Assembly (NCBI GenBank): GCA_003225535.1
Contig: QIAL01000393.1
Span: 3,552-36,259 of the forward strand
Origin: Acidobacteriota bacterium
GTDB lineage: Bacteria > Acidobacteriota > Terriglobia > Terriglobales > Acidobacteriaceae
Direction: 5' to 3'
DNA: 32,708 bases
Positions 62 through 29,773 of the stretch are shown here, in pieces. Numbering within the stretch: the stretch's first letter is position 1; every line of letters begins with the position of its first letter. The notes beneath the pieces are model-generated. The model searched no databases, had not been told where the DNA came from, and was given only the letters and a program-made list of their open reading frames with translations. The position numbers and the translations under genes are program-made.

Positions 62-2977
62 TTACAACGTCTTCAGGTACTCGATGATTTCCGTGCGCTC
101 CTCCGGGGACAGCTTGCGGCCGATCACTCCGTTGCCCTTCGGACCGTCGTTGAATTCGTGCCCAGCATTTGAATTACCCGGCAGATCGGTGCGGAACTCG
201 GCTGCTCCTTCGAGGGAATCGGTGTTGAGGCCGAGTTTGACTGGATCATATTGCTTACTCCCGAGATAAAACACTTTCGGCCGCTCCGAGACTGGTGATA
301 GCAGCGAAAACAAGTTGGGAACCGAACCATTGTGGAGGTATGGAGGCGTCGCCCAAATCCCATTGTGAGGCCGCGCTTTATACGCCAGGGGTGCCAGCAG
401 TTCGTTTTCCCGGTAGCCATTCCACTCTTCCCTCTGTTCCGGCGTGAGCTTGAGCTCGGCGTACGATTCGTCGATCAGCTTTTGTGTGATGTACCTAAGC
501 CCATCGCGTGCAGAGACGATTCCTTTTCCCAGCGGTCCGCTATCGGCAGTCCGGTTATGAAAATTCTGTGCCTGCTTGGCGTCGGTTCCAATTTCTCCCA
601 GAGGAATCATGGTCACCTTGAAGAACTGCCTTCCTCCAGGAGTCGTACTGTTCCAGTGTTGGGCCTTGCGGCCCTCGTCGGAAAGCATGGGTGACTGATG
701 GCAGTGCAGGCACAATTCGTTATAGAGTTTTTCGCCTTTGGCTGCAGCGACGCGGTCTATCTTCCCCAAGATGTCCTCCGGCCACTTGGGTGACCAAACG
801 CCCAAACCAGGTTCTGAACCGCCTAACAGAAGCTCGATCTCATGGAGATTATCGACGTGTACGGTGTGCTGAAACTGCTGTCCTGGATAGCCCAGCAGGT
901 TGATGCGCGACCGTACCCCCAGAGCCTCGCCCACATTTCTGCCCATTGGTTGCTGGATCGAGCCGTTGTATTGAACCCAGTCCATCCAGGACGCATCCCA
1001 GACGGGGGGGAAATTCACGGGGCCGTCCCCGACCACCAGGTTCTTACTGTTGTTCAACTCGGTCCCAAACACGAAGTTGCCAATCCGTGCCAGCGCGTCG
1101 GTGCGGCCATAACCCTCGGGAGTGGGAAAGAGATGGCGCGTGGCTTTGAACTCAGTGAAGCTGGTGTCGAGGTAGTATTTCAATGCGCGGCGTAACAGAA
1201 CCTGATCTGCGTGGGAGTGATCGGGTCCAAGCACTTTGTTGGCAAATCTGTGAAAGCGGACTGGATCGTAGTAGGTCCAGGTAACTGCGAGACCGAGAGC
1301 CTCGGTGAACTTCTGCAGGTCAATCAACGACGGCCCAGCGTCGATCCGGATTGCTTTTCGGCCGAAAAACAATTCTCCGGTATGACAGGCGGCGCAAGTA
1401 ATACCCAGCACGACGTTCCTCTGCCCTGTGTAGGGATCAACGAAACGATCATCGCGCGCGAATCCAACCGGCAATCCGTCCGGATTTTCCGTAGAGGACG
1501 AATCCGGGATAAAGCCAAAGCCTTGCATGTAGGAGTCTTGCCTGAACGGAGGTGCGCTCGTGATAGTGAGCCGCGGCTGCTCCAATGCAAGAAACCAGGC
1601 ATAAGGTAGGAGTTCACTTCCCTGCGCCGTGTGGTAATACCGACGACGCTGTTCTTCCGTCCAGTTCTGGGGAAGCCAGGCCACTTCCGTCGGCCTTTCG
1701 ACCCTCGGTACTTTCAGGCTGTTCTTTAAGGTGAAGATTGCGATTATGACTGCACCGATGCCGATCACGGACAGCAAGGCAAGAGCGCTGACGATACTCG
1801 GACGCCTGAGTAAAGGCCGCTTTGGCGGTGCCGCTATCGGCTGACCATGTGCCGGTCGAGGCGCAAGTTCGCACGCAGTTTGGGGTTCCGCGATGTACTG
1901 CTGCGGTAGATTCTTAGGCTTGTAACCCTGTACGCCATCCATGCGATCAAGAACACTTTGATGAATGTGGGCGCCGTTTGGGATCGTCCTCGCGCGTCCC
2001 AAGTTTATCCTGATGCCACGCTTCCATTTGCGGTCGGCTTGTCCTGCCACAGGTGCGGGGTACGAGAATATCTTCGGCCAAAACTCAGCTATCCACCACG
2101 CACCCTTTAGTGATTCGTGTTGATTCTCTGTAAGAGGATCCGGTGCCACGTACGGAGGCTTCCCTCCTAGAATGTCAGCCTTTCGAGCCTTATCTATTCG
2201 AAGCCCCGCAAGTTCTGCTTCACAGACCATCCACTGCAAAGCGATCTTCGAGAGCTGGCTCTCTGACTCCGGATAGCTGCCACCAACATCTGAATGCACG
2301 CCAGCGAACCAAAGCTCCTTTACATCTTGCTGATCATCGTGTGGCGTACCGAACAGGTTTTGCCGAAAGAACGCCCTGCGTTCATCAATCGATACCGCCT
2401 GTCGCACGACTTTGAGGTCAGGGTTGTGGATGGCCTTCGTGCCCGGGAAGTGCGCAACGTTGTATACCCAGCCCACCGAACTGACTGTGTCCCAGACTCC
2501 AACGAAATAGGGCTTACATTCGCGGCAAAAGGTTTTCTTGAAGTCGGCAGCCACCGCGAAGTCTATCTTCTTGCTCTTGAGCATCCGAACCGAGTACGGG
2601 ATTAAGCCCTCGTTGTCCTCGCGTAACAATCCAACTATGTGCAGCATCCCGCACAGCGCGCGGGCAGTGTATGCTCCTCGACTGAAACCCAAAAAGTACA
2701 GAGTGTCACCTGGTTGGTATGTCCGCATGAGGAACTGATAGGCGTCCGCAATGTTCTCGGAGATTCCGTATCCAAACGCGAGACCGATCACCTTGGTCCA
2801 CCATCGGGTGATTCCGGTGAGAGCACTCCGGGCGCCCATCGTACCCACTCCTGGATGGTAGTAGGCGACCTGCGAATCGTCGTGCACCAACATCTTGTAG
2901 AGCTTTACGACGTTGGATTTGCTTTCGCCGAACTCATTGCCGGTGCCGTCACAGCAAATCACGATATTCTTCGCCAT
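62..2977 (-). CDS. DUF2235 (T6SS Tle1-like alpha/beta hydrolase) - TM helix - RoxA-like dihaem cytochrome c fusion protein
   Basis: 971 aa ORF. N-term 'IVICCDGTGNEFG' and GFSRG (GxSxG, aa 97-101) with 'FAGVHSDVGGSYPES' are typical of DUF2235. Hydrophobic helix 'IVSALALLSVIGIGAVIIAIF' lies at about aa 395-416 after an Arg/Lys-rich stretch. C-term has CAACH (aa 528-532) and CLHCH (aa 756-760) haem motifs plus 'PYLHNGSVPNLFSLLSPVSERPKVFYLGS', typical of RoxA-like dihaem proteins. Confidence 0.9.
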   Translation of the reverse strand: MAKNIVICCDGTGNEFGESKSNVVKLYKMLVHDDSQVAYYHPGVGTMGARSALTGITRWWTKVIGLAFGYGISENIADAYQFLMRTYQPGDTLYFLGFSRGAYTARALCGMLHIVGLLREDNEGLIPYSVRMLKSKKIDFAVAADFKKTFCRECKPYFVGVWDTVSSVGWVYNVAHFPGTKAIHNPDLKVVRQAVSIDERRAFFRQNLFGTPHDDQQDVKELWFAGVHSDVGGSYPESESQLSKIALQWMVCEAELAGLRIDKARKADILGGKPPYVAPDPLTENQHESLKGAWWIAEFWPKIFSYPAPVAGQADRKWKRGIRINLGRARTIPNGAHIHQSVLDRMDGVQGYKPKNLPQQYIAEPQTACELAPRPAHGQPIAAPPKRPLLRRPSIVSALALLSVIGIGAVIIAIFTLKNSLKVPRVERPTEVAWLPQNWTEEQRRRYYHTAQGSELLPYAWFLALEQPRLTITSAPPFRQDSYMQGFGFIPDSSSTENPDGLPVGFARDDRFVDPYTGQRNVVLGITCAACHTGELFFGRKAIRIDAGPSLIDLQKFTEALGLAVTWTYYDPVRFHRFANKVLGPDHSHADQVLLRRALKYYLDTSFTEFKATRHLFPTPEGYGRTDALARIGNFVFGTELNNSKNLVVGDGPVNFPPVWDASWMDWVQYNGSIQQPMGRNVGEALGVRSRINLLGYPGQQFQHTVHVDNLHEIELLLGGSEPGLGVWSPKWPEDILGKIDRVAAAKGEKLYNELCLHCHQSPMLSDEGRKAQHWNSTTPGGRQFFKVTMIPLGEIGTDAKQAQNFHNRTADSGPLGKGIVSARDGLRYITQKLIDESYAELKLTPEQREEWNGYRENELLAPLAYKARPHNGIWATPPYLHNGSVPNLFSLLSPVSERPKVFYLGSKQYDPVKLGLNTDSLEGAAEFRTDLPGNSNAGHEFNDGPKGNGVIGRKLSPEERTEIIEYLKTL

Positions 2978-3360: not shown

Positions 3361-3747
3361 ATGGATAACATTACTGTGCTCATTGTGGACGATTCGTCCG
3401 TCATGCGGAAAATCGTTGAGCGTTCCCTCCGACAGGCGGGCCTCGAAATCGGGCAAGTCCTCGAAGCCGGCAACGGGCTAGAGGCTTTGGCGGTCCTGAA
3501 CCAGCAGAAAGTGAACCTTGTTCTCTGCGATATCAATATGCCTGCCATGGATGGTCTCGAATTCGTAAAGCAATTGTCCGGTGTGGAAAACGCGAAGGGC
3601 GTTCCGGTGGTCATGATTACGACCGAGGGCAGTGAGGGTCACGTAGTACAGGCTCTGTCGGCCGGCGCTCGTGGTTACATTCGCAAGCCATTTACGGCGG
3701 ATCAAGTAAAAGAACACATCATTCCAGTACTGGCGGGGAACTTATGA
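3361..3747 (+). CDS. cheY: CheY-like single-domain response regulator
   Basis: Receiver domain: 'VLIVDDSSVMRKIVERSL', phospho-Asp in 'LVLCDINMPAMDG', conserved Lys in 'GYIRKPF'. Confidence 0.93.
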   Translation: MDNITVLIVDDSSVMRKIVERSLRQAGLEIGQVLEAGNGLEALAVLNQQKVNLVLCDINMPAMDGLEFVKQLSGVENAKGVPVVMITTEGSEGHVVQALSAGARGYIRKPFTADQVKEHIIPVLAGNL

Positions 3748-4229
3748 ACACTTCCAGGAGTGAAACCGATGCCGCCAGCCGCCGCGAATACTGGCCTCCA
3801 CTGCTGGAGCTTTCCGCGCAAGAAGTTTTTGGTCTTATGTTAGGAGAGCGTTTAGACGCTGCTCCAGAGCCTGCTTCGGAGAATTCTCTCGACGTTACGT
3901 CGATGGTTGGATTTGCCGGGTCCCTGTGCGGACTGTTAACTCTGCGTTGCAGCAGCAAATCCGCTGCCCTCATGGCAAGGAAAATGCTTGGAACGGATGG
4001 TGCGGGGGCCAAGTCACAGATGGAAGATGCGGTGGGCGAGGTGTGTAATATGGTGGCCGGTAACTTCAAGAACAAGATTTCGGGGATCGGCGACGGCTGT
4101 AAACTCTCGGTTCCGACCGTGATCACCGGCAGTAACTATAGCCTGTGCACACTGGCAAATGATTACACGATGGAAATCAACCTCCTGTTCCACGGCAGTC
4201 CCATTGTCATTTCACTGCAACTGAACTGA
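3744..4229 (+). CDS. cheX: CheX-like chemotaxis phosphatase
   Basis: 161 aa with 'MEDAVGEVCNMVAGNFKNKI', matching the CheC/CheX ExxNM.aGN helix; ATGA overlap with cheY. Confidence 0.85.
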   Translation: MNTSRSETDAASRREYWPPLLELSAQEVFGLMLGERLDAAPEPASENSLDVTSMVGFAGSLCGLLTLRCSSKSAALMARKMLGTDGAGAKSQMEDAVGEVCNMVAGNFKNKISGIGDGCKLSVPTVITGSNYSLCTLANDYTMEINLLFHGSPIVISLQLN

Positions 4230-4413
4230 TCGGAGATTCAGAGCAGCTGCGTCTCGGAGTCCCGCCTCAGTTGACCTCAGTGGGTTTCTCAAGACCGACC
4301 TCAATGCCGACTCGTGATTGTGTTCCACCCGCTCGAGTTGCAGTCACTCCGAAGCTCATAGCAAGTAATCGCGGCGCGAGCGTTCGGATGCTGTTTTGAT
4401 ACCCGAATAAAGC

Positions 4414-5316
4414 TCAAATGGATGCGGAAGAATCTGGCCGAAAAACGGCGTCGACGAGCGCGATGATCTCACCCATCGCACCATCGATATCAAGCGTCAG
4501 ACGGGCCAGATCCAGGGTTGCGAGCTGGGGGCAATGCTCCAACAAGCTGAGCCAGGCCTCGTCTCGGGCAAGATCGACGGCCATCGCTTCGTAGTAGCCA
4601 TATCCCAAGTCCCGCAACCGGCAGAGCAGGTCGCTGAGATGGATCAGGGCTACCAGGGCAGGATCGGAAGGGGTCTCTGCAACGTGGTGGTGGAATTCGA
4701 TGACAGCTACCACATCGGCCGAGAACTTCCAATGCTCAGCCAGAATTTTCCCGCTCTGGCAGTGGGTGAATCCCAGCTCCTTAAGTTCCGCCGATTCCAC
4801 AGAAACACGTTCGTCACGGGCTGCGACGAAGCATTTGCGATATTCGTCGGTACAGGCAAGCGTGTTGACCAACATGCCCAGATCATGCAGCAAACCCGAG
4901 AGGTAAGCCTTCTCCGGCTCGGCATATCCAATCAGAGTCGCCAGCTTGCGGCTGATCAAGGCACAGCCTAAAGAGTGACGCCAGAATGTGGTGGCATTAA
5001 AGGCCCATTTATCGGCGGGCACAATCCGGTTCAGACAACACCCCAGCAGTATGGCCTGCACGCGCTTCAAGCCCAGCGTCAGGATTGCGCTCCGCACGGT
5101 CTCTGTTTTACGGCGCCCGAACAGTGGAGAGTTCGCCATCCGCAGGCATTGAGCCGCGATGGAGGAATCGTATGAAACCAATTGCACAACTTGTTCCACA
5201 TTGACCTGCTCGACCGGCAATTGAAGTATCGAAGCAAGCGGCTGGACGATGGCCGGAATGGCCGGGATCGCATCCAGCGTGGTGATCGAAGGTCGGATTT
5301 GATCGAGTGTTTTCAT
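4414..5316 (-). CDS. HDOD domain protein (copy 1)
   Basis: 'IPAIPAIVQPLASILQLP...DSSIAAQCLRMANSPLFG...AYLSGLLHDLGMLVN' is typical of HDOD; paralogous to 25023-25913. Confidence 0.93.
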   Translation of the reverse strand: MKTLDQIRPSITTLDAIPAIPAIVQPLASILQLPVEQVNVEQVVQLVSYDSSIAAQCLRMANSPLFGRRKTETVRSAILTLGLKRVQAILLGCCLNRIVPADKWAFNATTFWRHSLGCALISRKLATLIGYAEPEKAYLSGLLHDLGMLVNTLACTDEYRKCFVAARDERVSVESAELKELGFTHCQSGKILAEHWKFSADVVAVIEFHHHVAETPSDPALVALIHLSDLLCRLRDLGYGYYEAMAVDLARDEAWLSLLEHCPQLATLDLARLTLDIDGAMGEIIALVDAVFRPDSSASI

Positions 5317-6221
5317 GACTTCTCTGACCCACTGTAATTTGGCGGCGCTTTCCAGTACCCGATGGCTCCCGGAAAATGCACCAATCGAAACCGGTCGTCG
5401 ACCTGATAGAGAGACTCGGCGGGTCCCAGAAAGAAATAGCCGCCGGACAGCAGGTTGGAATGGAAATGCTGCATGACCTTGCGTTTCGAGTTCAGGTCGA
5501 AGTAGATGAGAACGTTGCAGCAGAAAATCAGGTCCAGCCCCTTGAGAAAAATCATCTTGCTGTCGTCGCTGAGGTTGACGCGGTCAAAACGGATGATCGA
5601 TTTCAGCTTGTCGGATACCTGCAGGCGTTTCTCGTCATAAGGCTTGAAGTACTTCTTCCTCAACAACTCGCTGGTGCTGCGAAGAGCGTATTCTCCATAA
5701 ATTCCAGCCTTGGCCGCGGACAATGAGTTGTCATTCAAGTCGGTGGCAAGAATGTCGAAGGTCCATCCCGACAACAACGTTGCACTCTCCTCCAACAGGA
5801 ACATGGCTAAGGTATAAGGTTCCTCTCCAGTGGAGCAGCCGGCGCTCCAAATACGAAGCCGCTTGAATCCCATGGCATTCTTGCTCGTGATCAACTGGGG
5901 AAGAATAACTGTGCGCAAGGCTTCCAATTGGGGAGGACTGCGAAACATATAAGTCTCGCCGATGGTGATTTCGTTCAAAAGCAACCTCAGCTCCGCCTCT
6001 CGATTAGCGCGCGTCGTGAGATGAGACAAGTACTCAGCCGGGGTCTTGGCATTCACAACCGCCATGCGACGCGAACAACGCGAGGCCAGCAAGTACAGCT
6101 TCTCCTCCGGCTGATAAATGCCTGAAATTTCGTAGATCAGGTCGCGGATCTTCAGATATGCAGGATCTTTAACATCTTCGGTTTCAGACTTTGAGACGGG
6201 TTTTGTGCCGGTCGTTCCCAA
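5313..6221 (-). CDS. cheR: CheR-type MCP glutamate methyltransferase (copy 1)
   Basis: 'LRIWSAGCSTGEEPYTLAMFLLEES', 'DLIFCCNVLIYFDLNSKRKVMQHF', 'GGYFFLGPAESL'; 4-bp overlap with the HDOD gene. Confidence 0.95.
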   Translation of the reverse strand: MGTTGTKPVSKSETEDVKDPAYLKIRDLIYEISGIYQPEEKLYLLASRCSRRMAVVNAKTPAEYLSHLTTRANREAELRLLLNEITIGETYMFRSPPQLEALRTVILPQLITSKNAMGFKRLRIWSAGCSTGEEPYTLAMFLLEESATLLSGWTFDILATDLNDNSLSAAKAGIYGEYALRSTSELLRKKYFKPYDEKRLQVSDKLKSIIRFDRVNLSDDSKMIFLKGLDLIFCCNVLIYFDLNSKRKVMQHFHSNLLSGGYFFLGPAESLYQVDDRFRLVHFPGAIGYWKAPPNYSGSEKS

Positions 6222-6260
6222 GACTTTCGACTCACTCTCTCCACATCTGGTCAGATACCC

Positions 6261-7364
6261 TCAAATTCGAGCTGTCCTTGCACCCAACGACGCTTGCGTT
6301 CTGCCCGCCAAGACGCGCCGCACAATCTCCTGACTGATCTCTGGCAGGGGACAGATCTTGCTGGCGCATTGCGAATCGACTACCGCTCCCGGCATGCCCC
6401 ATACCACGGAAGAAGCCTCGTCCTGCACAAGCACCTCTCCACCAGCCTCACGGATGTGGGCGGCGCCACGGGCGCCGTCGGAGCCCATGCCGGTCATGAC
6501 CACGGCGAGAACGTTCGCGCCGTAGGTTCGAACCACAGAGCGAAACAATACGTCCACTGCAGGGCGGCAGTAGTTCTCGGGCGAGTCCTGATTGAGTTCC
6601 AAGACGGTTTGCAGTCCCTTGCGCACCACGGTCAAGTGATAGTCACCGCGTGCGATCCAAACCTGTCCGGGCTCCAATGATTTGCCTGTCTCAGCTTCGC
6701 GCACTGAAAGGCGAGATCTTGAATTCAGCCGGTCGGCGAGCATGCGCGTAAACAAGGGGGGCATGTGCTGCACCACCACGACTGGTACCGGAAGATCTTG
6801 AGGTAGCTGAGGGATCACTTCTCCCAGCGCATTCGGTCCCCCTGTGGAAGTTCCGATGGCAAGAATGTCTACGACATGATCGGCCGATGCAGTTCTGTTG
6901 ACCGCAGAGATCGCCGGCACAGGTGCCGAACTGCTGCGCCGACGGCCGGCGAGCGATGTGATCTTGGAGACCAGTTCCCGGCGCAACTGGTCCATCGCGT
7001 TCGCCAAACTCGAGCTGTTGCTCGGCTTGGTTACATAATCGGAGGCGCCCGCGGCCAACGCATCGAGCGTGGTGGCTGCGCCACGCTCGGTGAGGGTGCT
7101 GCACATGACCACCGGCAGCTGAGGATACAGCTTGCGGATCTCAATCAGAGTCTGGATCCCATCCAGCCCGGGCATCTCAATGTCGAGCGTGATGATGTCG
7201 GGATTCAGCTGCGGAATCCTGGCCAGGGCGATCGCACCGTTGGAAGCGGTCCCGGCGACTTTGATTTCCGTAGTGGAAGCGAGAGCGTCGCACAATAGCC
7301 TGCGAACCACCACGGAATCGTCCACGATCAAAACCTGTATGGGCGGCATACGATCGTTACTCAC
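6261..7364 (-). CDS. cheB: CheB methylesterase with receiver domain (copy 1)
   Basis: Receiver 'VLIVDDSVVVRRLL...ITLDIEMPGLDG' plus methylesterase 'LAIGTSTGGPNAL', 'VVVQHMPPLFT', 'MTGMGSDGARG'. Confidence 0.96.
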   Translation of the reverse strand: MSNDRMPPIQVLIVDDSVVVRRLLCDALASTTEIKVAGTASNGAIALARIPQLNPDIITLDIEMPGLDGIQTLIEIRKLYPQLPVVMCSTLTERGAATTLDALAAGASDYVTKPSNSSSLANAMDQLRRELVSKITSLAGRRRSSSAPVPAISAVNRTASADHVVDILAIGTSTGGPNALGEVIPQLPQDLPVPVVVVQHMPPLFTRMLADRLNSRSRLSVREAETGKSLEPGQVWIARGDYHLTVVRKGLQTVLELNQDSPENYCRPAVDVLFRSVVRTYGANVLAVVMTGMGSDGARGAAHIREAGGEVLVQDEASSVVWGMPGAVVDSQCASKICPLPEISQEIVRRVLAGRTQASLGARTARI

Positions 7365-7429
7365 TCGCCGCGGATGCTTGCATTTCCTGGCAGAAATCCG
7401 CGCGGGTTATCTGAACCGGTCAACGCAGG

Positions 7430-9070
7430 CTATGCACCGGCTCTCGCACTCATCGCCTTGGGCGCATGTGGCCTGGCCTGCAGTTCGGCATAAGCGTCCT
7501 TCTCCAGCCGGAAGTGGGCTACCAACTCGCGCAACCTGGTCGACATCTCCGCCAGAGAGCCGGCGGCTTTGGACGAGTCACCGGCGCCATGGGCAGTACT
7601 CTGCGCCGCCTGAGCGACGCCAGCGATGTTCTTGGTGATTTCCGACGAGCCGCGCGCGGCCTCGCTTACGTTGCGGGCCATCTCGTTAGTGGTGGCGTTC
7701 TGTTCCTCGACCGCGGTCGCGATGGTGTTGGAGATGTCGTTTACCTGCTTGATGACCTCGCCTATCTGGCCGATGGCGCCGACCGCGCTTTTGGTGTCAC
7801 TCTGGATGGCTTCGATCTTGCGGCTGATGTCTTCGGTCGCCTTCGCCGTCTGTTTAGCCAGTTCCTTGACTTCGTTGGCCACGACCGCGAATCCCTTACC
7901 AGCCTCACCGGCGCGAGCCGCCTCGATTGTCGCATTCAAGGCCAGCAGGTTGGTCTGTTGGGCAATCGAAGTAATCACTTTGATGACCTGTCCAATCTCA
8001 GTGGATGAATCCCCAAGCTTGGCGACGATCTGATTGGTCTCGTCCGCAACTCTGACGGCGCTGGTCGCCACCTTCGCCGACTCGTGAGCGTTCTTGGCGA
8101 TCTCCTTAATGCTGGCGCTCATCTCTTCGGAGCCCGTGGCCACCGTTTGCAGATTCTTGTTTACTTGCTCGCTGGAACTGGCAACCACCTGGGCCTGGGT
8201 GGAGGTCTCTTCCGAATTGGCGGTGATCTCCTGGCTGGTGCTGGACAGTTCCTCGCTGGCGCTGGCCACTTGCTCGGCCGTTCCGGCGATTGACCGGATC
8301 ATGTCGCGCAGGCTGTTCTTCATGCTGTTGAGCGCGGCGGCCGCACTCCCGATTTCGTCTTGCGACGCAACTTTCAGGTCGTCGATGCCGAGGTTGTTGG
8401 CTGCTATCTCCTGAATCACTGCCACCATACCTTGGATAGCTCCCGTAATGGAGCGGACGATAAGGATGGCAACTCCAAGCCCGACGATCAGCCCGCCGAG
8501 TGCAAGGATGATGAGCAGGCGAAGGATTGACGCTTCCACTCGCTCGTGCTCGGTGATGGCTGCCTCCTGCAACTTGTCAATAATGGCCTGCATACCGTCG
8601 CTAGCCGTCTCTGCTCCTGTGCGGACCTGGACTGCATGCTCGGTGAAGAGCATGTCGGTGGCTTCCTTGGTTTTGCCCCGCCGCCGCAATTCGATCGCCT
8701 GACCCTGCAGTTCTCGGAGTTCCTTTGCTCCTGCATCCACCTTGGCGTATAGCTCTTTTTCTCTCTCAGTTTGCAGCAGCTTGCTCAGTTCCTCCATCGC
8801 CTTATCGGCTTGGGTGATGCCTTCGTCACGGCGCTTGAGAATGCTCTCGCTGTCCGAAAGCACAAATCCTCGAGTAGCGCTGGTCTGCAGCTCCAAGCCA
8901 GCGTCCACGTCCATTGCGAGTTGTGCCTTCAGCATCTGCTTCGAGATTTCGTCGGTAAGATCGGAGAGCTTGTTCATAGAGGTGTAGGTCATGAAGCTTA
9001 TGACCGCGATGATTAAAAGTAGTGCGCCAAAGCCAAATCCCAGCTTCATTTTCAGACTGATCTTGTTCAC
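7430..9070 (-). CDS. Methyl-accepting chemotaxis protein (membrane, 4HB-like sensor, HAMP, MCP signal)
   Basis: TM '[20 protein letters not shown]', second TM about '[21 protein letters not shown]', MCP hairpin '[37 protein letters not shown]'. Start trimmed to GTG at 9070, preceded by GGGAGG; the ORF extends to 9163. Confidence 0.93.
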
Positions 9071-9170
9071 GTCTAGCCTCCCAGCAGAATTCACAGCACC
9101 TGATTTTCCTGGACCCGCGGTAATGGCGAGAACCCTCGCTATCGCAAGACCGGGGGCACGCACAAAGGAG

Positions 9171-9197
9171 TTATCGGCCCCGATATTGAAGGCTTTA
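9171..9197 (-). promoter_or_regulatory. sigma28 (FliA)-like promoter upstream of MCP: TAAA-N15-GCCGATAA
   Basis: Reverse complement reads TAAAGCCTTCAATATCGGGGCCGATAA; both core elements and the 15-nt spacing match the FliA consensus. Confidence 0.8.
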
Positions 9198-9243
9198 GCT
9201 TGTCAAAGAATGCTGGATGCCGGGAATTCTGGCAGTGATCGAC

Positions 9244-10446
9244 TCAGAAGGAGATGACCAATCGAGGAGTGATTACCGGACAATCTCCGTTCGTGCGCAG
9301 CCCGCCGGGATGATGAAGAAATTGAAAGTCTTGCACCAGAGCAACGTGCTTGTTGAACGGGATCTTGTAGTAGGTTTCCACCACGAACTCACTGCGGAGG
9401 CCGAACCCAGCTTGAGGCTCGGACGAAAACCGCACCCAGGTGGCGGCCAATCCCAAGGAGTCCTGGCTTCGGCGTTGCAACGGTCCCTGCAGGATCGCTC
9501 CTCCGCCGATGTGGTGCGTGAAGCCACTCACGCGGCCTTCGGCCCAGCCTAGTTGTAGAAATGTGGAGACCCTGCGCTCGCCCCGATCCTGAGCGAGCGG
9601 TTGCCGTAAAACAGACTGCTCCACGACCGAGTAAAATCCGTGTGCTCCGGAGGACTGGCTGTCGTCAAACCGCGAGATCCTCCCATCCAGCCGCCAGTAC
9701 CCAAAACTGATCCGCCCCGGATGATCTAACTTTCCAATGTTCCAACTGCGTCCTGGCTCGACAATCGACAGGGTATTCGAGCCTGCGGTCTTAAAGACGC
9801 CGAGTCCCAGCCCGTAGCTAGCTCCAGCGTTCACGAACGCGCTCACGCCAGGTTTAGGCTCAGGGTAGGTGGGAAAGGTTACGATTGTCGGACTGTACCC
9901 CATCGAAGAATTTAGAAAGTTTCCTGCGTTTTGAACCACAGCGAACTCCGTATTAGCGTCGATCTTGCCCGCCTTAATACGAATCCGGTCGGACATAAGC
10001 CTCTGCTCAAACCAGATTTCATAAAGCGTGGTTCGGGAACTGGCATCGATGTTGGAATAGAGTTGGGCAGCACCATCGTAGGTTTCCCCAAAAACGTTAA
10101 TGTGGTGTTTGAGCCGCGCCATCCCCGCGCTTCCGCTTAGACCAAAGAGCTTCTTGCCGTCCACCGGTACCAGCAAATCAAAAGAATAGCGGCCGAATCC
10201 ATTACCGGAGTCCTGTTTGGCATGCAAGGTTTTCGACCAATCGTAGATTACGACCGCTTGAGGGGAGATGCCGTGCTCGTTCAGATCGCGCAGTAGTTGC
10301 CGAGGTGTGAAGGCTGATTCCGAGGGAGACTCGTTCGCAGATGGGCTGAGGGCTGACGGTGTGGAAGTCTGCGGGAAACAACGGTAAGAAAACGCTGAGC
10401 TTAGACTCAATAATAGAAATGCCAGGGACCGACCTGAAAGCCTCAC
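9244..10446 (-). CDS. OprB-like carbohydrate-selective porin
   Basis: Signal peptide 'MRLSGRSLAFLLLSLSSAFS'; 'FDLLVPVDGKKLFGLSGSAGMARLKHHIN', 'IWFEQRLMSDRIRIKAGKIDANTEFAVVQNAGNFLNSSMGYSPTI'; ends in F. Confidence 0.82.
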   Translation of the reverse strand: MRLSGRSLAFLLLSLSSAFSYRCFPQTSTPSALSPSANESPSESAFTPRQLLRDLNEHGISPQAVVIYDWSKTLHAKQDSGNGFGRYSFDLLVPVDGKKLFGLSGSAGMARLKHHINVFGETYDGAAQLYSNIDASSRTTLYEIWFEQRLMSDRIRIKAGKIDANTEFAVVQNAGNFLNSSMGYSPTIVTFPTYPEPKPGVSAFVNAGASYGLGLGVFKTAGSNTLSIVEPGRSWNIGKLDHPGRISFGYWRLDGRISRFDDSQSSGAHGFYSVVEQSVLRQPLAQDRGERRVSTFLQLGWAEGRVSGFTHHIGGGAILQGPLQRRSQDSLGLAATWVRFSSEPQAGFGLRSEFVVETYYKIPFNKHVALVQDFQFLHHPGGLRTNGDCPVITPRLVISF

Positions 10447-10500
10447 AGAGGAATGCCTCCCTATATGGCGACCAGTGGCGCGAATGTCGCCGTAAGAGAG

Positions 10501-10527
10501 GCATCGGCTCCGACGAGATAGCCTTTA
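10501..10527 (-). promoter_or_regulatory. sigma28 (FliA)-like promoter upstream of porin: TAAA-N15-GCCGATGC
   Basis: Reverse complement reads TAAAGGCTATCTCGTCGGAGCCGATGC; 15-nt spacing, 54 nt upstream of the porin GTG. Confidence 0.65.
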
Positions 10528-10682
10528 CACGATGGGACGTATCCTTCGGGCCATTACGCCGAGCTCGTTAGTAACGTTGAGGCGTTTAGACTTTAGAAAC
10601 TTCCCATGATGCATCAACCTCTTGATCTGCAGGTCGACTCCTCTGGAATCGGTTGTTCTGATCGATTGGCCGATCGGCCGCT

Positions 10683-11123
10683 TCAGGGTTCCATTTGCTC
10701 CAGCGATTCGCAGGCCTCTTCGGTATTGAGCACATGCATCAAGCCTTGATCCAATTTGTGGACGCCCACAACGAGATTCCTCATATCAGCTTCCAACGTT
10801 TGGGGCGGCGGCTCAGCGGTCTTTTCATCCACCTCGACGACATCGCCGATGCTGTCGACTAACAAACTCACTGGACCTTCCTTGGTGCGCACAACAACAT
10901 TGATCAGCGACGTGCCGGGAGGCCGTTCCGCAATCCGCAAACGCCGGCGCAAATCCACCGCCATAACGATCTGCCCTCGCAGGTTGATCAAGCCGCGGAT
11001 CACATCAGGAAGCAGCGGAACCCGAGTCATCTCCTGATGCTGAATGACTTCCTGTACCTCGTCGACCGCAATGCCGAAAAGCTGATCTGCGAGAAAGAAT
11101 GTGCAAAACTGTTGTGTGGTCAC
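10683..11123 (-). CDS. cheW: CheW coupling protein
   Basis: 'FFLADQLFGIAVDEVQEVIQHQEMTRVPLLPDVIRGLINLRGQIVMAVDLRRRL' is the CheW consensus. Confidence 0.95.
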   Translation of the reverse strand: MTTQQFCTFFLADQLFGIAVDEVQEVIQHQEMTRVPLLPDVIRGLINLRGQIVMAVDLRRRLRIAERPPGTSLINVVVRTKEGPVSLLVDSIGDVVEVDEKTAEPPPQTLEADMRNLVVGVHKLDQGLMHVLNTEEACESLEQMEP

Positions 11124-11138
11124 GGATGCTTGTGCTCC

Positions 11139-13493
11139 TTATGCTTCAGCCCCGACTGATGCCTGGCCGGGTAGAGCCGCCGCAACCAGTCCCGGCAGGT
11201 CCAAAATGTCGGTGACTCGTTTCTGAATCACGGCTGAGCCCAGCACGCCCCTACGCGCAGTCTCGGGTTGAATGACGAACGATTCCTCGACGATGTCGAG
11301 AATGCGATCCACCACCAGCCCGATACTCCGGCCTCTGTCGGCGTAGACCACGACGTGCAGGGCTTCGTGCGCATTCTCCGAAATCACCTTGCGCTTGCTC
11401 TCGAGCACGTGGGTAACCCGGACGAGCGGCATGATCTGTCCTCGATACTGCACGGCCTCTTGGTCACCCGCGACCTCGATGGCGCTGGGAGGGAATTCCT
11501 CCAGACGGGCGACCAAGGCGAGATCAATGGCGATCCTTCCGGTTTCTCCGTGCTGGAACAGCAGCATAGGTTTGCGTTGACTCGTGTCCGTCACAGGAAT
11601 CAATTCGTTTGCTTCTTGTCTTTCGGCTGTTTCCCGTTCCCTGGCATCGCAAAGCACGTTGGCGCGCTGTGCCAGGCCGAGCACGTCGAGGATTAGCGCA
11701 ACCTTCCCGTCCCCCATGATGGTGGCGCCGGCATAGATGTTGACGCTCTTCATTTGCTTGCTCAGCGGCTTGACGACGATCTCCTCAGTATCATTGATCT
11801 CGTCTACGACCAGGCCGAAGGCTCGGTCATCTGCCCGTAGTACGACGATATTGACACTCTGGAATTCGGTCTTGAGGGACGCGGCCACCTGCGCCTGAGA
11901 GTCCGCTCTCAGTTCCCGCTGCAAGTAAACCAACGGCAATAATTTGCCCCGCAGACGGTACACCGGGGCGCCGTTGACGAATTCCAGCCCCTTGCGGGAC
12001 TGTTCGCCTTCCAGTCGAACTAGCTCCAGTAAGCTGACCTGCGGGATGGCGTAACGGTCGCCGGCACTAGTCACAATGAGCGCCGGGATAATGGCCAAGG
12101 TTAGGGGGATCTTCATGCGCACCGTCGAACCTTGCCCGGGCTTGGACTGCAGATCGACGGTGCCGCCGATCTTCTCGATGTTTGTCTTTACCACATCCAG
12201 CCCGACGCCGCGCCCGGAGACGTTGGTGACCTTTTCCGCGGTCGAGAAACCCGCGAGGAAGATGAGGTTGGTAATTTCGCGCTCCGTCATCCGGGCCGCC
12301 TGGTCAGCGGTGATCAAGGCCTTCTGAATGGCTTTATTGCGAAGCTTTTCATAGTCCAACCCGGCGCCATCATCGGTGACCTCGATGTTGACCTGTCCGC
12401 CCTCGTGAAACGCCCGCAGAAAGAGCAGCCCTTCCGGATCCTTTCCTGCCATGCGCCGCACTTGCGGGGGCTCGATGCCATGATCCACCGCATTGCGCAC
12501 CAGGTGGGTGAGTGGATCTTTAATCGCCTCGATGATGGTCTTGTCGAGTTCAGTCTCTTTGCCCTCCATTTCGATGCGCACCTGCTTGCCGCAACCGAGG
12601 GCTACGTCGCGTACTGTGCGCGGGAACTTGCTCCAGACATTGCCGATCGGCTGCATGCGCGTCTTCATCACGCCTTCCTGCAGTTCGGTAGTGAGCAGGT
12701 TCAGCCGCTGACTGGTGGCGAGAAGTTCGCTGTCTTCGGTGGAGTTGGTGTACTGCACGATCTGGTTGCGCAGCAGAACCATCTCGCCCACACGGTTCAT
12801 GAGCCGGTCCAACTGGGAGACATCAACCCGGATCGTACTGTCGCTGGCGCTTTGCCCTCGGGCTTGCTGCTGGGCGTTCAGGGCCTCGACAATGTCCTGC
12901 GGTTTGACGGCTCCCCTTTCGACCAGGATCTCTCCGACATGTCGAGGGTCACCGGCTTTTTGGTGCTCGACAGCGGCATTTACCTCGCTGGCTTTGGCAA
13001 CGCCACGCTTGATGAGAATCTCGCCAAGATTTGGTACTGGTTGTTCTGATGGCGTCGCCGGAGGCTCGATCCTCGCAGCTGTCAAAGGCGAAGCAGGGCT
13101 GCCCGCCGGCGCTTCGAGCAGGCGAGCCAGCTTCAAGATGAGTTCCTGATCATTGCGCTCCCCCTCCTTGCCCGAAGTCTCGATGTTCTTCAACATCTCG
13201 CGAACCGCGTCAAGCATGGCCAGCAATGCGGTGGTAATTTCGGCGTTGAGCGGCAACAGGCCATCGCGCAGGCGCGACAGCAGACTCTCTCCAGCGTGAG
13301 TTACTGCCTCGAGCTCATTAAATGCAAGGAAGCCGGAAGTGCCTTTGATGGTGTGGATCGTCCGGAAAATACTGGCTAGAGTCTCACGATTCGCCGGCTC
13401 CTTCTCGAGCACGACCAGACCCTGATCCAGGCGATCGAGGTTCTCGTAACTCTCGATTAAGAATTCTTTAACAATCGCGGCATCATCGCTCAT
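11139..13493 (-). CDS. cheA: CheA histidine kinase with Hpt, tandem MshEN-like repeat, kinase core and two CheW-like domains
   Basis: Hpt 'FRTIHTIKGTSGFLAF'; 'HLVRNAVDHGIE', 'GRGVGLDVVKTNIEKIGG'. Two CheW-like segments lie near the C-terminus ('IPALIVTSAGDRYAIPQ...' and 'KPMLLFQHGETGRIAIDL...'). Confidence 0.95.
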   Translation of the reverse strand: MSDDAAIVKEFLIESYENLDRLDQGLVVLEKEPANRETLASIFRTIHTIKGTSGFLAFNELEAVTHAGESLLSRLRDGLLPLNAEITTALLAMLDAVREMLKNIETSGKEGERNDQELILKLARLLEAPAGSPASPLTAARIEPPATPSEQPVPNLGEILIKRGVAKASEVNAAVEHQKAGDPRHVGEILVERGAVKPQDIVEALNAQQQARGQSASDSTIRVDVSQLDRLMNRVGEMVLLRNQIVQYTNSTEDSELLATSQRLNLLTTELQEGVMKTRMQPIGNVWSKFPRTVRDVALGCGKQVRIEMEGKETELDKTIIEAIKDPLTHLVRNAVDHGIEPPQVRRMAGKDPEGLLFLRAFHEGGQVNIEVTDDGAGLDYEKLRNKAIQKALITADQAARMTEREITNLIFLAGFSTAEKVTNVSGRGVGLDVVKTNIEKIGGTVDLQSKPGQGSTVRMKIPLTLAIIPALIVTSAGDRYAIPQVSLLELVRLEGEQSRKGLEFVNGAPVYRLRGKLLPLVYLQRELRADSQAQVAASLKTEFQSVNIVVLRADDRAFGLVVDEINDTEEIVVKPLSKQMKSVNIYAGATIMGDGKVALILDVLGLAQRANVLCDARERETAERQEANELIPVTDTSQRKPMLLFQHGETGRIAIDLALVARLEEFPPSAIEVAGDQEAVQYRGQIMPLVRVTHVLESKRKVISENAHEALHVVVYADRGRSIGLVVDRILDIVEESFVIQPETARRGVLGSAVIQKRVTDILDLPGLVAAALPGQASVGAEA

Positions 13494-28468: not shown

Positions 28469-29773
28469 ATGTCTGATTGGAGTGAACACTTGCGTGTTCT
28501 GAGTGCAGGGACTCTGAAATCCCTGTTTGTGCCGGGCGGAATTTGGTTGCTGGGGGCGGTGCTACTGGTCTACTCCGGTTGGCTGACCGTTGCCTTGCCT
28601 GTGCTCAGTTTTCTGTACTATTGCGCGATTGCCGCAGGAATGCTGCTGGCGTGGAGATTTCACTCAAGCCGCATCTTCTTGTCTTTGTCGGTAGTCTTTC
28701 TGGCGCAGCAGGCGGCAGCCGTTTCTACGGGACAGCCGCCCTTCATCTCGGCCACCTTAACAGCGCTCGCTGTTCTTCTGCCGGTGAATTTCGTTTTGAT
28801 CGCGATGATGCATGAGCGGGGTTTTACCGTTGAATCGGTGGCGCCCGTGGCTCTATTTCTGTTCGTAGAATCCTTAACCGTGACCGTGTTTTGCGGGGCC
28901 GCGGTCCGCGTGCATAGTCTGTCGATTCCGATTGTCCTGCCGCGTTACGCCTTAGCGGTGCCGGCCACGGCTGCCATCTTCTTGAGTGTGCGATTTCTGC
29001 TGAATCGGAAGCCACTTGATAGTGCGTTGTTGTGGTCTTTAGCCTCCTTCTTTCTGGCGCTACGCTCTGCAGCGGCTATACGAACGTCTACGGCGTACTG
29101 GCTCGCCACGGCGTGTATCCTTGCAACCGCCGTCATCGAGAATTCTTACTTGTTGGCGTATCACGACGAACTGACCTCGCTGCCATCGCGGCGCGCATTT
29201 AATGACGCGTTACTGCGGCTGAAGGCTCCCTATTCGATCGCGGTGGTTGATATCGATCATTTCAAGCGTTTCAACGATACGTACGGCCACGACACCGGTG
29301 ATCAAGTCTTACGAATGGTCGCAACCAACTTGGGGAGTGTCACTGGCGGAGGCAAAGCTTACCGTTGCGGCGGCGAGGAGTTCAACATTCTTTTTCCCGG
29401 CAAAACGATTGCCGAAGTCCTGCCACATCTGGAGAAGTTGCGCGTGACAGTTGCGAAGTCCGAATTTCGCATGCGCGGCAATGACCGGCGGCAGCTTCCG
29501 CGCGGACCCGATCGTCGTAACCAACGGAATCGTGCTCGTGCTCGAAAGGGAGATGCCATTCGACGGCTAGCCGAAGGCAAGCCGTCTTCAGTGCTGTCAG
29601 TGACTATAAGCATCGGTGTAGCCACCGCCGCGGCAGAAAGATCCAGTCCGGAAACGGTACTGGAATCCGCCGATAAGGCGCTCTACCGAGCGAAGGCAAA
29701 CGGACGAAACCGGGTCGAGACGGCGGCATCTCCGCAGCGGCGCGTGCGTACCAGGGCAGCCGGGATCGCCTAG
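28469..29773 (+). CDS. Membrane GGDEF-domain diguanylate cyclase
   Basis: N-term multi-TM region; 'YLLAYHDELTSLPSRRAFNDAL', 'AVVDIDHFKRFNDTYGHDTGDQVLRMVA', 'YRCGGEEFNILF', 'TISIGVA'. Confidence 0.92.
   Translation: MSDWSEHLRVLSAGTLKSLFVPGGIWLLGAVLLVYSGWLTVALPVLSFLYYCAIAAGMLLAWRFHSSRIFLSLSVVFLAQQAAAVSTGQPPFISATLTALAVLLPVNFVLIAMMHERGFTVESVAPVALFLFVESLTVTVFCGAAVRVHSLSIPIVLPRYALAVPATAAIFLSVRFLLNRKPLDSALLWSLASFFLALRSAAAIRTSTAYWLATACILATAVIENSYLLAYHDELTSLPSRRAFNDALLRLKAPYSIAVVDIDHFKRFNDTYGHDTGDQVLRMVATNLGSVTGGGKAYRCGGEEFNILFPGKTIAEVLPHLEKLRVTVAKSEFRMRGNDRRQLPRGPDRRNQRNRARARKGDAIRRLAEGKPSSVLSVTISIGVATAAAERSSPETVLESADKALYRAKANGRNRVETAASPQRRVRTRAAGIA

Follow-up and report, generated by a model that had tools for sequence, protein, structure and literature searches.

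Does a single gene of an uncultured soil acidobacterium encode two enzymes joined through a membrane helix, and what could the two halves do together? The question is raised by a stretch of 32,708 nucleotides (hereafter the window) of contig QIAL01000393.1 from the Acidobacteriota assembly GCA_003225535.1. An open reading frame at 62..2977 of the window carries, in this order, a DUF2235 hydrolase domain, a hydrophobic helix and a di-haem cytochrome c domain. An earlier note on this DNA had proposed a single frame of 971 aa, and this proposal was borne out. The frame runs without interruption over 971 codons and a stop (ATG at 2977-2975, stop at 64-62), apparently as a monocistronic gene, on the minus strand, which the note had left unstated and to which all the gene's coordinates given below refer. 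The landmarks described at that time, i.e. GFSRG (aa 97-101), the helix (aa 395-416), CAACH (aa 528-532) and CLHCH (aa 756-760), all lie at the places given for them.

We searched 101 relatives for homologues of the fusion and scanned named genomes with clade-specific peptide patterns. Together, the search and the scan identified three other metagenome-assembled genomes (MAGs), of two named Acidobacteriota orders, with this fusion and its linker (67-85% identity). Two of them belong to the same genus as the window: Acidobacteriaceae palsa_142 (G017; 85% identity, the first 62 residues being cut by an assembly N) and Terriglobia SRVP_7 (G011; 70% identity). The fourth fusion, of 974 aa, was added by the scan of named genomes and belongs to the Bryobacterales MAG bog_377 (68% identity). 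The linker (aa 362-394; 1796..1894), which ends in the basic stretch KRPLLRRPS, is colinear across the four fusions (CELAPRP / CELLPRP / GELVPRP), and the transmembrane helix (aa 395-416; 1730..1795) is likewise common to all four. Between the window gene and that of palsa_142 (L070), dN/dS is 0.13 for the hydrolase, 0.42 for the linker (aa 361-393), 0.24 for the helix and 0.07 for the haem domain. The fused gene is therefore real, conserved and kept by purifying selection, linker and helix included. An assembly or annotation artefact (missed stop, frameshift or chimeric contig), against which the earlier note had called for a check at the junction, could be feared from a draft MAG of 1086 contigs that is 85% complete and from a relative encoding the halves as two separate genes, but it is refuted and as good as impossible, because four separate assemblies agree in the junction and linker and dN/dS is below 1 there.

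The fusion is known from a few uncultured soil Acidobacteria. It was found in 3 of the 45 genomes of the window's genus, and no further case was seen when the top candidates per genome were scored in 396 genomes across the phylum, 385 alphaproteobacteria and 399 Pseudomonadota. No plasmid record covered 80% of the fused protein in one place. The relative with separate genes is Candidatus Sulfotelmatobacter Chersky.8_4 (L073), in which the hydrolase gene (371 aa) and the haem protein gene (607 aa) form one operon, closely spaced on one strand, with a hydrophobic ORF of 144 aa between them. The 144-aa ORF (L073:7151-7582, plus strand) has no Pfam match and is absent from the other loci searched. 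Halves encoded as two genes in a related genome had been named beforehand as what would speak against the fusion; such halves literally exist in Chersky.8_4, but they do not undermine it, since both trees nest them among the fusions. In the haem-domain tree, the split protein falls into a single clade with the four fusions (support 100/100), as sister to the Bryobacterales fusion, and the hydrolase tree gives the same pairing. This nesting argues for a fission in Chersky.8_4. One fusion, followed by a fission with the operon retained, would thus be the simplest reading of the trees, repeated fusion being a possible alternative. Moreover, two stand-alone hydrolases (G057 and G172; 72% identity) group beside the window pair in the hydrolase tree, a placement for which hydrolase loss, transfer or a second fusion are possible explanations.

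The N-terminal half matches PF09994 (DUF2235) over nearly the whole profile (1-286 of 287; aa 3-252; 2222..2971), with 259.5 bits against a cut-off of 27 (E = 4.8e-77), and homology to stand-alone hydrolases runs on to about aa 361. A profile of 24 homologues matched three PDB entries: TleB (9j3f), Tle1 (4o5p) and 6sjl. We infer that 9j3f is TleB from what the entry is called and because the offset is 36 at each of the triad positions. TleB is a phospholipase with both PLA1 and PLA2 activity and a crystallographic Ser-Asp-His triad (PMC12421835). The corresponding residues are invariant in the 24 homologues: the nucleophile Ser99 in GFSRG (2681..2683) aligns with the catalytic Ser240 of TleB, the acid Asp163 in the WDTV motif (2489..2491) with Asp280, and the base His228 in the VHSDVGG motif (2294..2296) with His347. 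By homology, this half is shown to be an intact Tle1-type serine hydrolase, and its family would make a phospholipid or a related ester the probable substrate. Other DUF2235 genes came to light in different settings. One adjoins a patatin-like gene in an alphaproteobacterial genome (L171:3-3213, minus strand). Another, stand-alone, is carried by a viral contig beside an integrase-like ORF (L075:4001-5182, plus strand); it has no PADLOC match and is possibly prophage cargo. PADLOC found no defence family.

Around the fused gene lie genes for Big_7 proteins, a response regulator, CheX and HDOD, and it stands alone beside a chemotaxis cluster (3361-13493) that encodes a response regulator, CheX, HDOD, CheR, CheB, MCP and CheA. 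Further along the window is a gene for a GGDEF-domain protein of 434 aa (28469-29773, plus strand). Membership of the Tle1 family, together with a type VI secretion system (T6SS) sheath gene (PF05943) in the same genome, could make the hydrolase half a T6SS effector of the Tle1 type and the fusion a weapon, which we consider very improbable. The sheath (VipB/TssC) genes (G000:C281:820-3750), the first of them in broken frames, are carried by a different contig, whereas the fusion lies among chemotaxis genes, and no adjacent gene was seen to encode VgrG, PAAR, an adaptor or an immunity protein. The close stand-alone hydrolases are compact proteins of 370-430 aa. In addition, an internal signal anchor and c-type haems require export by Sec and maturation by Ccm, which does not suit an effector.

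We then considered how the protein would sit in the membrane. The 20 residues preceding the helix contain four K/R and no D/E. Stand-alone di-haem proteins of the family to which the haem half belongs (NF040606) begin with a signal anchor or a lipobox, and the helix of the fusion corresponds to that signal anchor; the close stand-alone hydrolases mostly have neither. A soluble cytoplasmic hydrolase would thus have been placed ahead of a pre-existing export anchor. Attachment of c-type haem takes place in the periplasm, and cytochrome c assembly proteins are encoded in the window's genome. The origin of the anchor, the positive charge on its N-terminal side and the periplasmic attachment of haem give good support to a predicted bitopic inner-membrane protein whose hydrolase faces the cytoplasm and whose haems face the periplasm, each close to the membrane surface, in agreement with the topology that the earlier note had drawn from the positive-inside rule. 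No internal start suited to a free di-haem protein was found: the sole in-frame start within 60 codons of the helix, an ATG, lies 48 codons upstream of the helix and still within the region of hydrolase homology. AlphaFold2, run on the full protein with an input of eight sequences, gave an unusable model (mean pLDDT 36, pTM 0.28).

A second architecture uses the same anchor. In large genomes from the alphaproteobacterial and Pseudomonadota surveys (L135:6243-9011, minus strand; L196; L197), a soluble domain of about 225 aa precedes the membrane helix and the same di-haem domain. This N-terminal domain starts with ..NPCPFLRGLV and has no Pfam match. Similar-looking open frames of 934-949 aa occur in other genomes, where the di-haem part was the only part matched. 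This architecture is independent of the DUF2235 fusion.

The C-terminal half (aa 439-970; 68..1663) matches the whole NCBIfam model NF040606, "di-heme-cytochrome C peroxidase" (1-524 of 524), with 510 bits against a cut-off of 150 (E = 1.1e-152). The RoxA-like Pfam family PF21419 covers only 39 residues (aa 865-903; E = 1.9e-16), and the RoxA, RoxB and RoxC equivalog models give 44-50 bits where 900-1000 are required. According to these scores, the haem half is related to RoxA but is not itself a RoxA, belonging to a separate subfamily, NF040606. The RoxA label that the earlier note gave to this half is thus too specific and is not supported in that form. The word "peroxidase" is, for NF040606, an annotation in the family name, and we know of no substrate for any protein of this family.

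Across 22 homologues (alignment A3), the only invariant histidines of the haem domain are His532, His760, His882 and His940; these sequences have neither an invariant Met nor an invariant distal His at haem 1. In classical bacterial cytochrome c peroxidases (CCP), the electron-transfer haem is His/Met ligated. This haem is not matched here, His940 being invariant instead of a Met. The motifs around the four histidines align with those of RoxA (4b2n) around H195, H394, H517 and H641. Haem 1 would be held by His532, the proximal ligand in CAACH (1382..1396; RoxA CSACH195), and haem 2 by His760 in CLHCH (aa 756-760; 698..712; RoxA CASCH394), with His940 (158..160; RoxA GGHDF) as the expected second axial ligand. 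His882 lies in the MauG motif PYLHNGSVP (aa 879-887; 317..343) and is the counterpart of RoxA His517. In RoxA, H195 holds the O2-binding haem, while H394 and H641 ligate the second haem (PMC6311187). One further residue deserves attention. Glu684 (926..928), which lies between the haems, is invariant in the 22 sequences of A3 and is Glu or Gln in most NF040606 members, and most other RoxA-like proteins of the alignment do not have these residues there. From alignment and spacing, it probably falls about where RoxA has Phe317, in the region of the distal Glu of CCP. In RoxA this region, with Phe317, is devoid of acid-base residues, unlike that of CCP and MauG (PMC6797691). The RoxA-type ligation favours oxygenation for the haem half, as in RoxA and in OdsA, while Glu684 hints at peroxide reduction.

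Gene context was examined around the stand-alone NF040606 genes. A catalase-related gene, weakly PF00199-like, adjoins 13 of about 52 stand-alone NF040606 loci, which are not all independent. Its product is often exported, and no other operon partner of the di-haem gene was met as often (L111, L120, L121, L124, L126, L127, L137, L140, L141 and L192-L195), and its nearest solved structure is 3e4w (320 aa), a catalase-related peroxidase of Mycobacterium avium paratuberculosis. The partner is absent from the fused genomes of the window's genus. A P450 gene was found beside or near three NF040606 loci, and an oleate hydratase gene within 5 kb (≤5 kb) of two. On pNGR234a, a catalase gene, a hypothetical gene and the di-haem gene are followed directly downstream by a patatin-like phospholipase gene. 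A general operon link between patatin and di-haem genes was rejected, as none of 12 patatin relatives in other genomes adjoins a di-haem gene; the link is limited to the pNGR234a lineage. Overall, the context of NF040606 genes suggests lipid oxidation or peroxide handling. No stand-alone DUF2235 gene adjoins a di-haem gene in the 385 alphaproteobacterial and 399 Pseudomonadota genomes. In three genomes of rhizobial size outside Acidobacteriota the two genes are 33-47 kb apart, and these were not counted as linked.

The two halves might act on unrelated substrates and be joined merely for membrane anchoring or co-expression. The stand-alone hydrolases of the same clade, G057 and G172, have no di-haem gene beside them, no shared neighbourhood or synteny was found among the fusions, and the di-haem anchor evidently accepts N-terminal cargo, since L135, L196 and L197 have a different cytoplasmic domain joined at this position. 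However, none of the four fusions has lost either active site, purifying selection acts on both domains, and the split relative retains both genes in one operon. We regard mere tethering as somewhat unlikely.

The reading that we prefer, tentatively and with somewhat less than even confidence, is a genuine two-enzyme bitopic inner-membrane protein in which both halves share one class of substrate, lipid acyl chains. With moderate support, the hydrolase would release the acyl chains of phospholipids or of related esters, the haem half would perform redox chemistry on free or membrane-bound acyl chains or on their hydroperoxides, and electrons would be exchanged between haem 1 (His532), which has the open site, and haem 2 (His760/His940). 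The fusion suggests, as the leading hypothesis, that lipid cutting may be coupled to lipid oxidation or to peroxide removal. A lipid role is supported by the catalase-related, P450, oleate hydratase and patatin neighbours of the stand-alone genes, and the persistence of the split L073 pair in one operon speaks for the two-enzyme reading as well. Among the di-haem superfamily, OdsA (PA2077), the oleate 10S-dioxygenase of P. aeruginosa, oxygenates oleate in the periplasm and requires both haem His (PMC4496055), and RoxA cleaves polyisoprene (PMC6311187); since both oxidise lipophilic substrates, they support an oxygenase or lipid role here. On the other hand, the domains lie in opposite compartments, so a product would have to cross the membrane or diffuse in it. 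Activity of the hydrolase on the inner leaflet is not assured either, as P. aeruginosa Tle1, the relative that has been studied best, was harmless to E. coli without a signal sequence (PMC13133936). The patatin link is confined to one lineage, the fused genomes have no catalase-related partner, and the two surveys gave no DUF2235/di-haem adjacency, all of which weakens this explanation.

As for the chemistry of the haem half, we lean towards oxygenation of the oxylipin type, like that of OdsA, over peroxide removal, although Glu684 weakens this choice. In its most specific form, a one-polypeptide oxylipin synthase would release a fatty acid from phospholipid at the cytoplasmic face of the membrane and oxygenate it at the periplasmic face, which is doubtful. 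Clearance of lipid peroxides is the alternative that survives best; it is somewhat unlikely but has to be taken seriously. In such a process, the haem half would be a true peroxidase that reduces the hydroperoxides of outer-leaflet phospholipids or fatty acids, and damaged acyl chains would be cut out by the hydrolase. Mammalian peroxiredoxin 6, with peroxidase and PLA2 activity in one protein, is a functional analogue. An invariant Glu684 near the RoxA Phe317 site would recall the catalytic Glu of CCP and MauG, and the catalase-related neighbour fits peroxide handling too. However, the placement of Glu684 comes from alignment, the ligation of haem 2 appears to be bis-His as in RoxA, no Met being invariant, and a distal His is not invariant at haem 1. 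We retain the two-enzyme reading, with oxygenation as its preferred chemistry.

Di-haem proteins of the NF040606 family occur widely among soil bacteria and bacteria associated with plants. That one of them is joined in nature to a phospholipase-type hydrolase points directly to lipids as what this branch, at least, acts on. If the coupling is true, the fusion would represent a transmembrane enzyme of lipid oxidation, from which bacteria might also obtain oxylipins; in Pseudomonas, oxylipins are signals (PMC6377657, PMC5155153). As the earlier note had surmised, no description of a DUF2235 or phospholipase domain joined in one protein to a di-haem cytochrome c peroxidase or RoxA was found in the literature searched. 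Both domain families are known, and it is their combination that appears new.

Several known systems resemble parts of this protein. With the T6SS effectors Tle1 (4o5p, 6sjl) and TleB (9j3f), it has in common the PF09994 catalytic domain and the Ser-Asp-His triad; unlike them, it is not linked to VgrG, adaptor or immunity genes, it does not have the membrane-anchoring domains of Tle1, and its hydrolase is followed in the same chain by a signal anchor and then by a di-haem domain. The haem half shares with RoxA, RoxB and RoxC (4b2n) the four histidines, the PYLHNGSVP motif and the large di-haem size class, but it has a low equivalog score, carries Glu684 probably near the Phe317 site and would be membrane anchored. 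The stand-alone NF040606 protein of pNGR234a (WP_010875339) matches the whole C-terminal domain and the signal anchor with 44% identity, without an N-terminal hydrolase. The FadCcp proteins PA2077 (OdsA) and PA2078, likened here by description, are also large periplasmic di-haem enzymes with two CxxCH motifs, a MauG motif and a C-terminal distal His, and they too have no hydrolase domain. In animals, release and oxygenation are performed by separate enzymes, phospholipase A2 plus cyclooxygenase or lipoxygenase. The coral allene oxide synthase-lipoxygenase fusions (PMC5617202) and mammalian peroxiredoxin 6 differ from the present fusion in having unrelated folds and no membrane span between the active sites, but, like the protein as proposed here, they combine two steps of lipid oxidation or of lipid-peroxide handling within a single chain.
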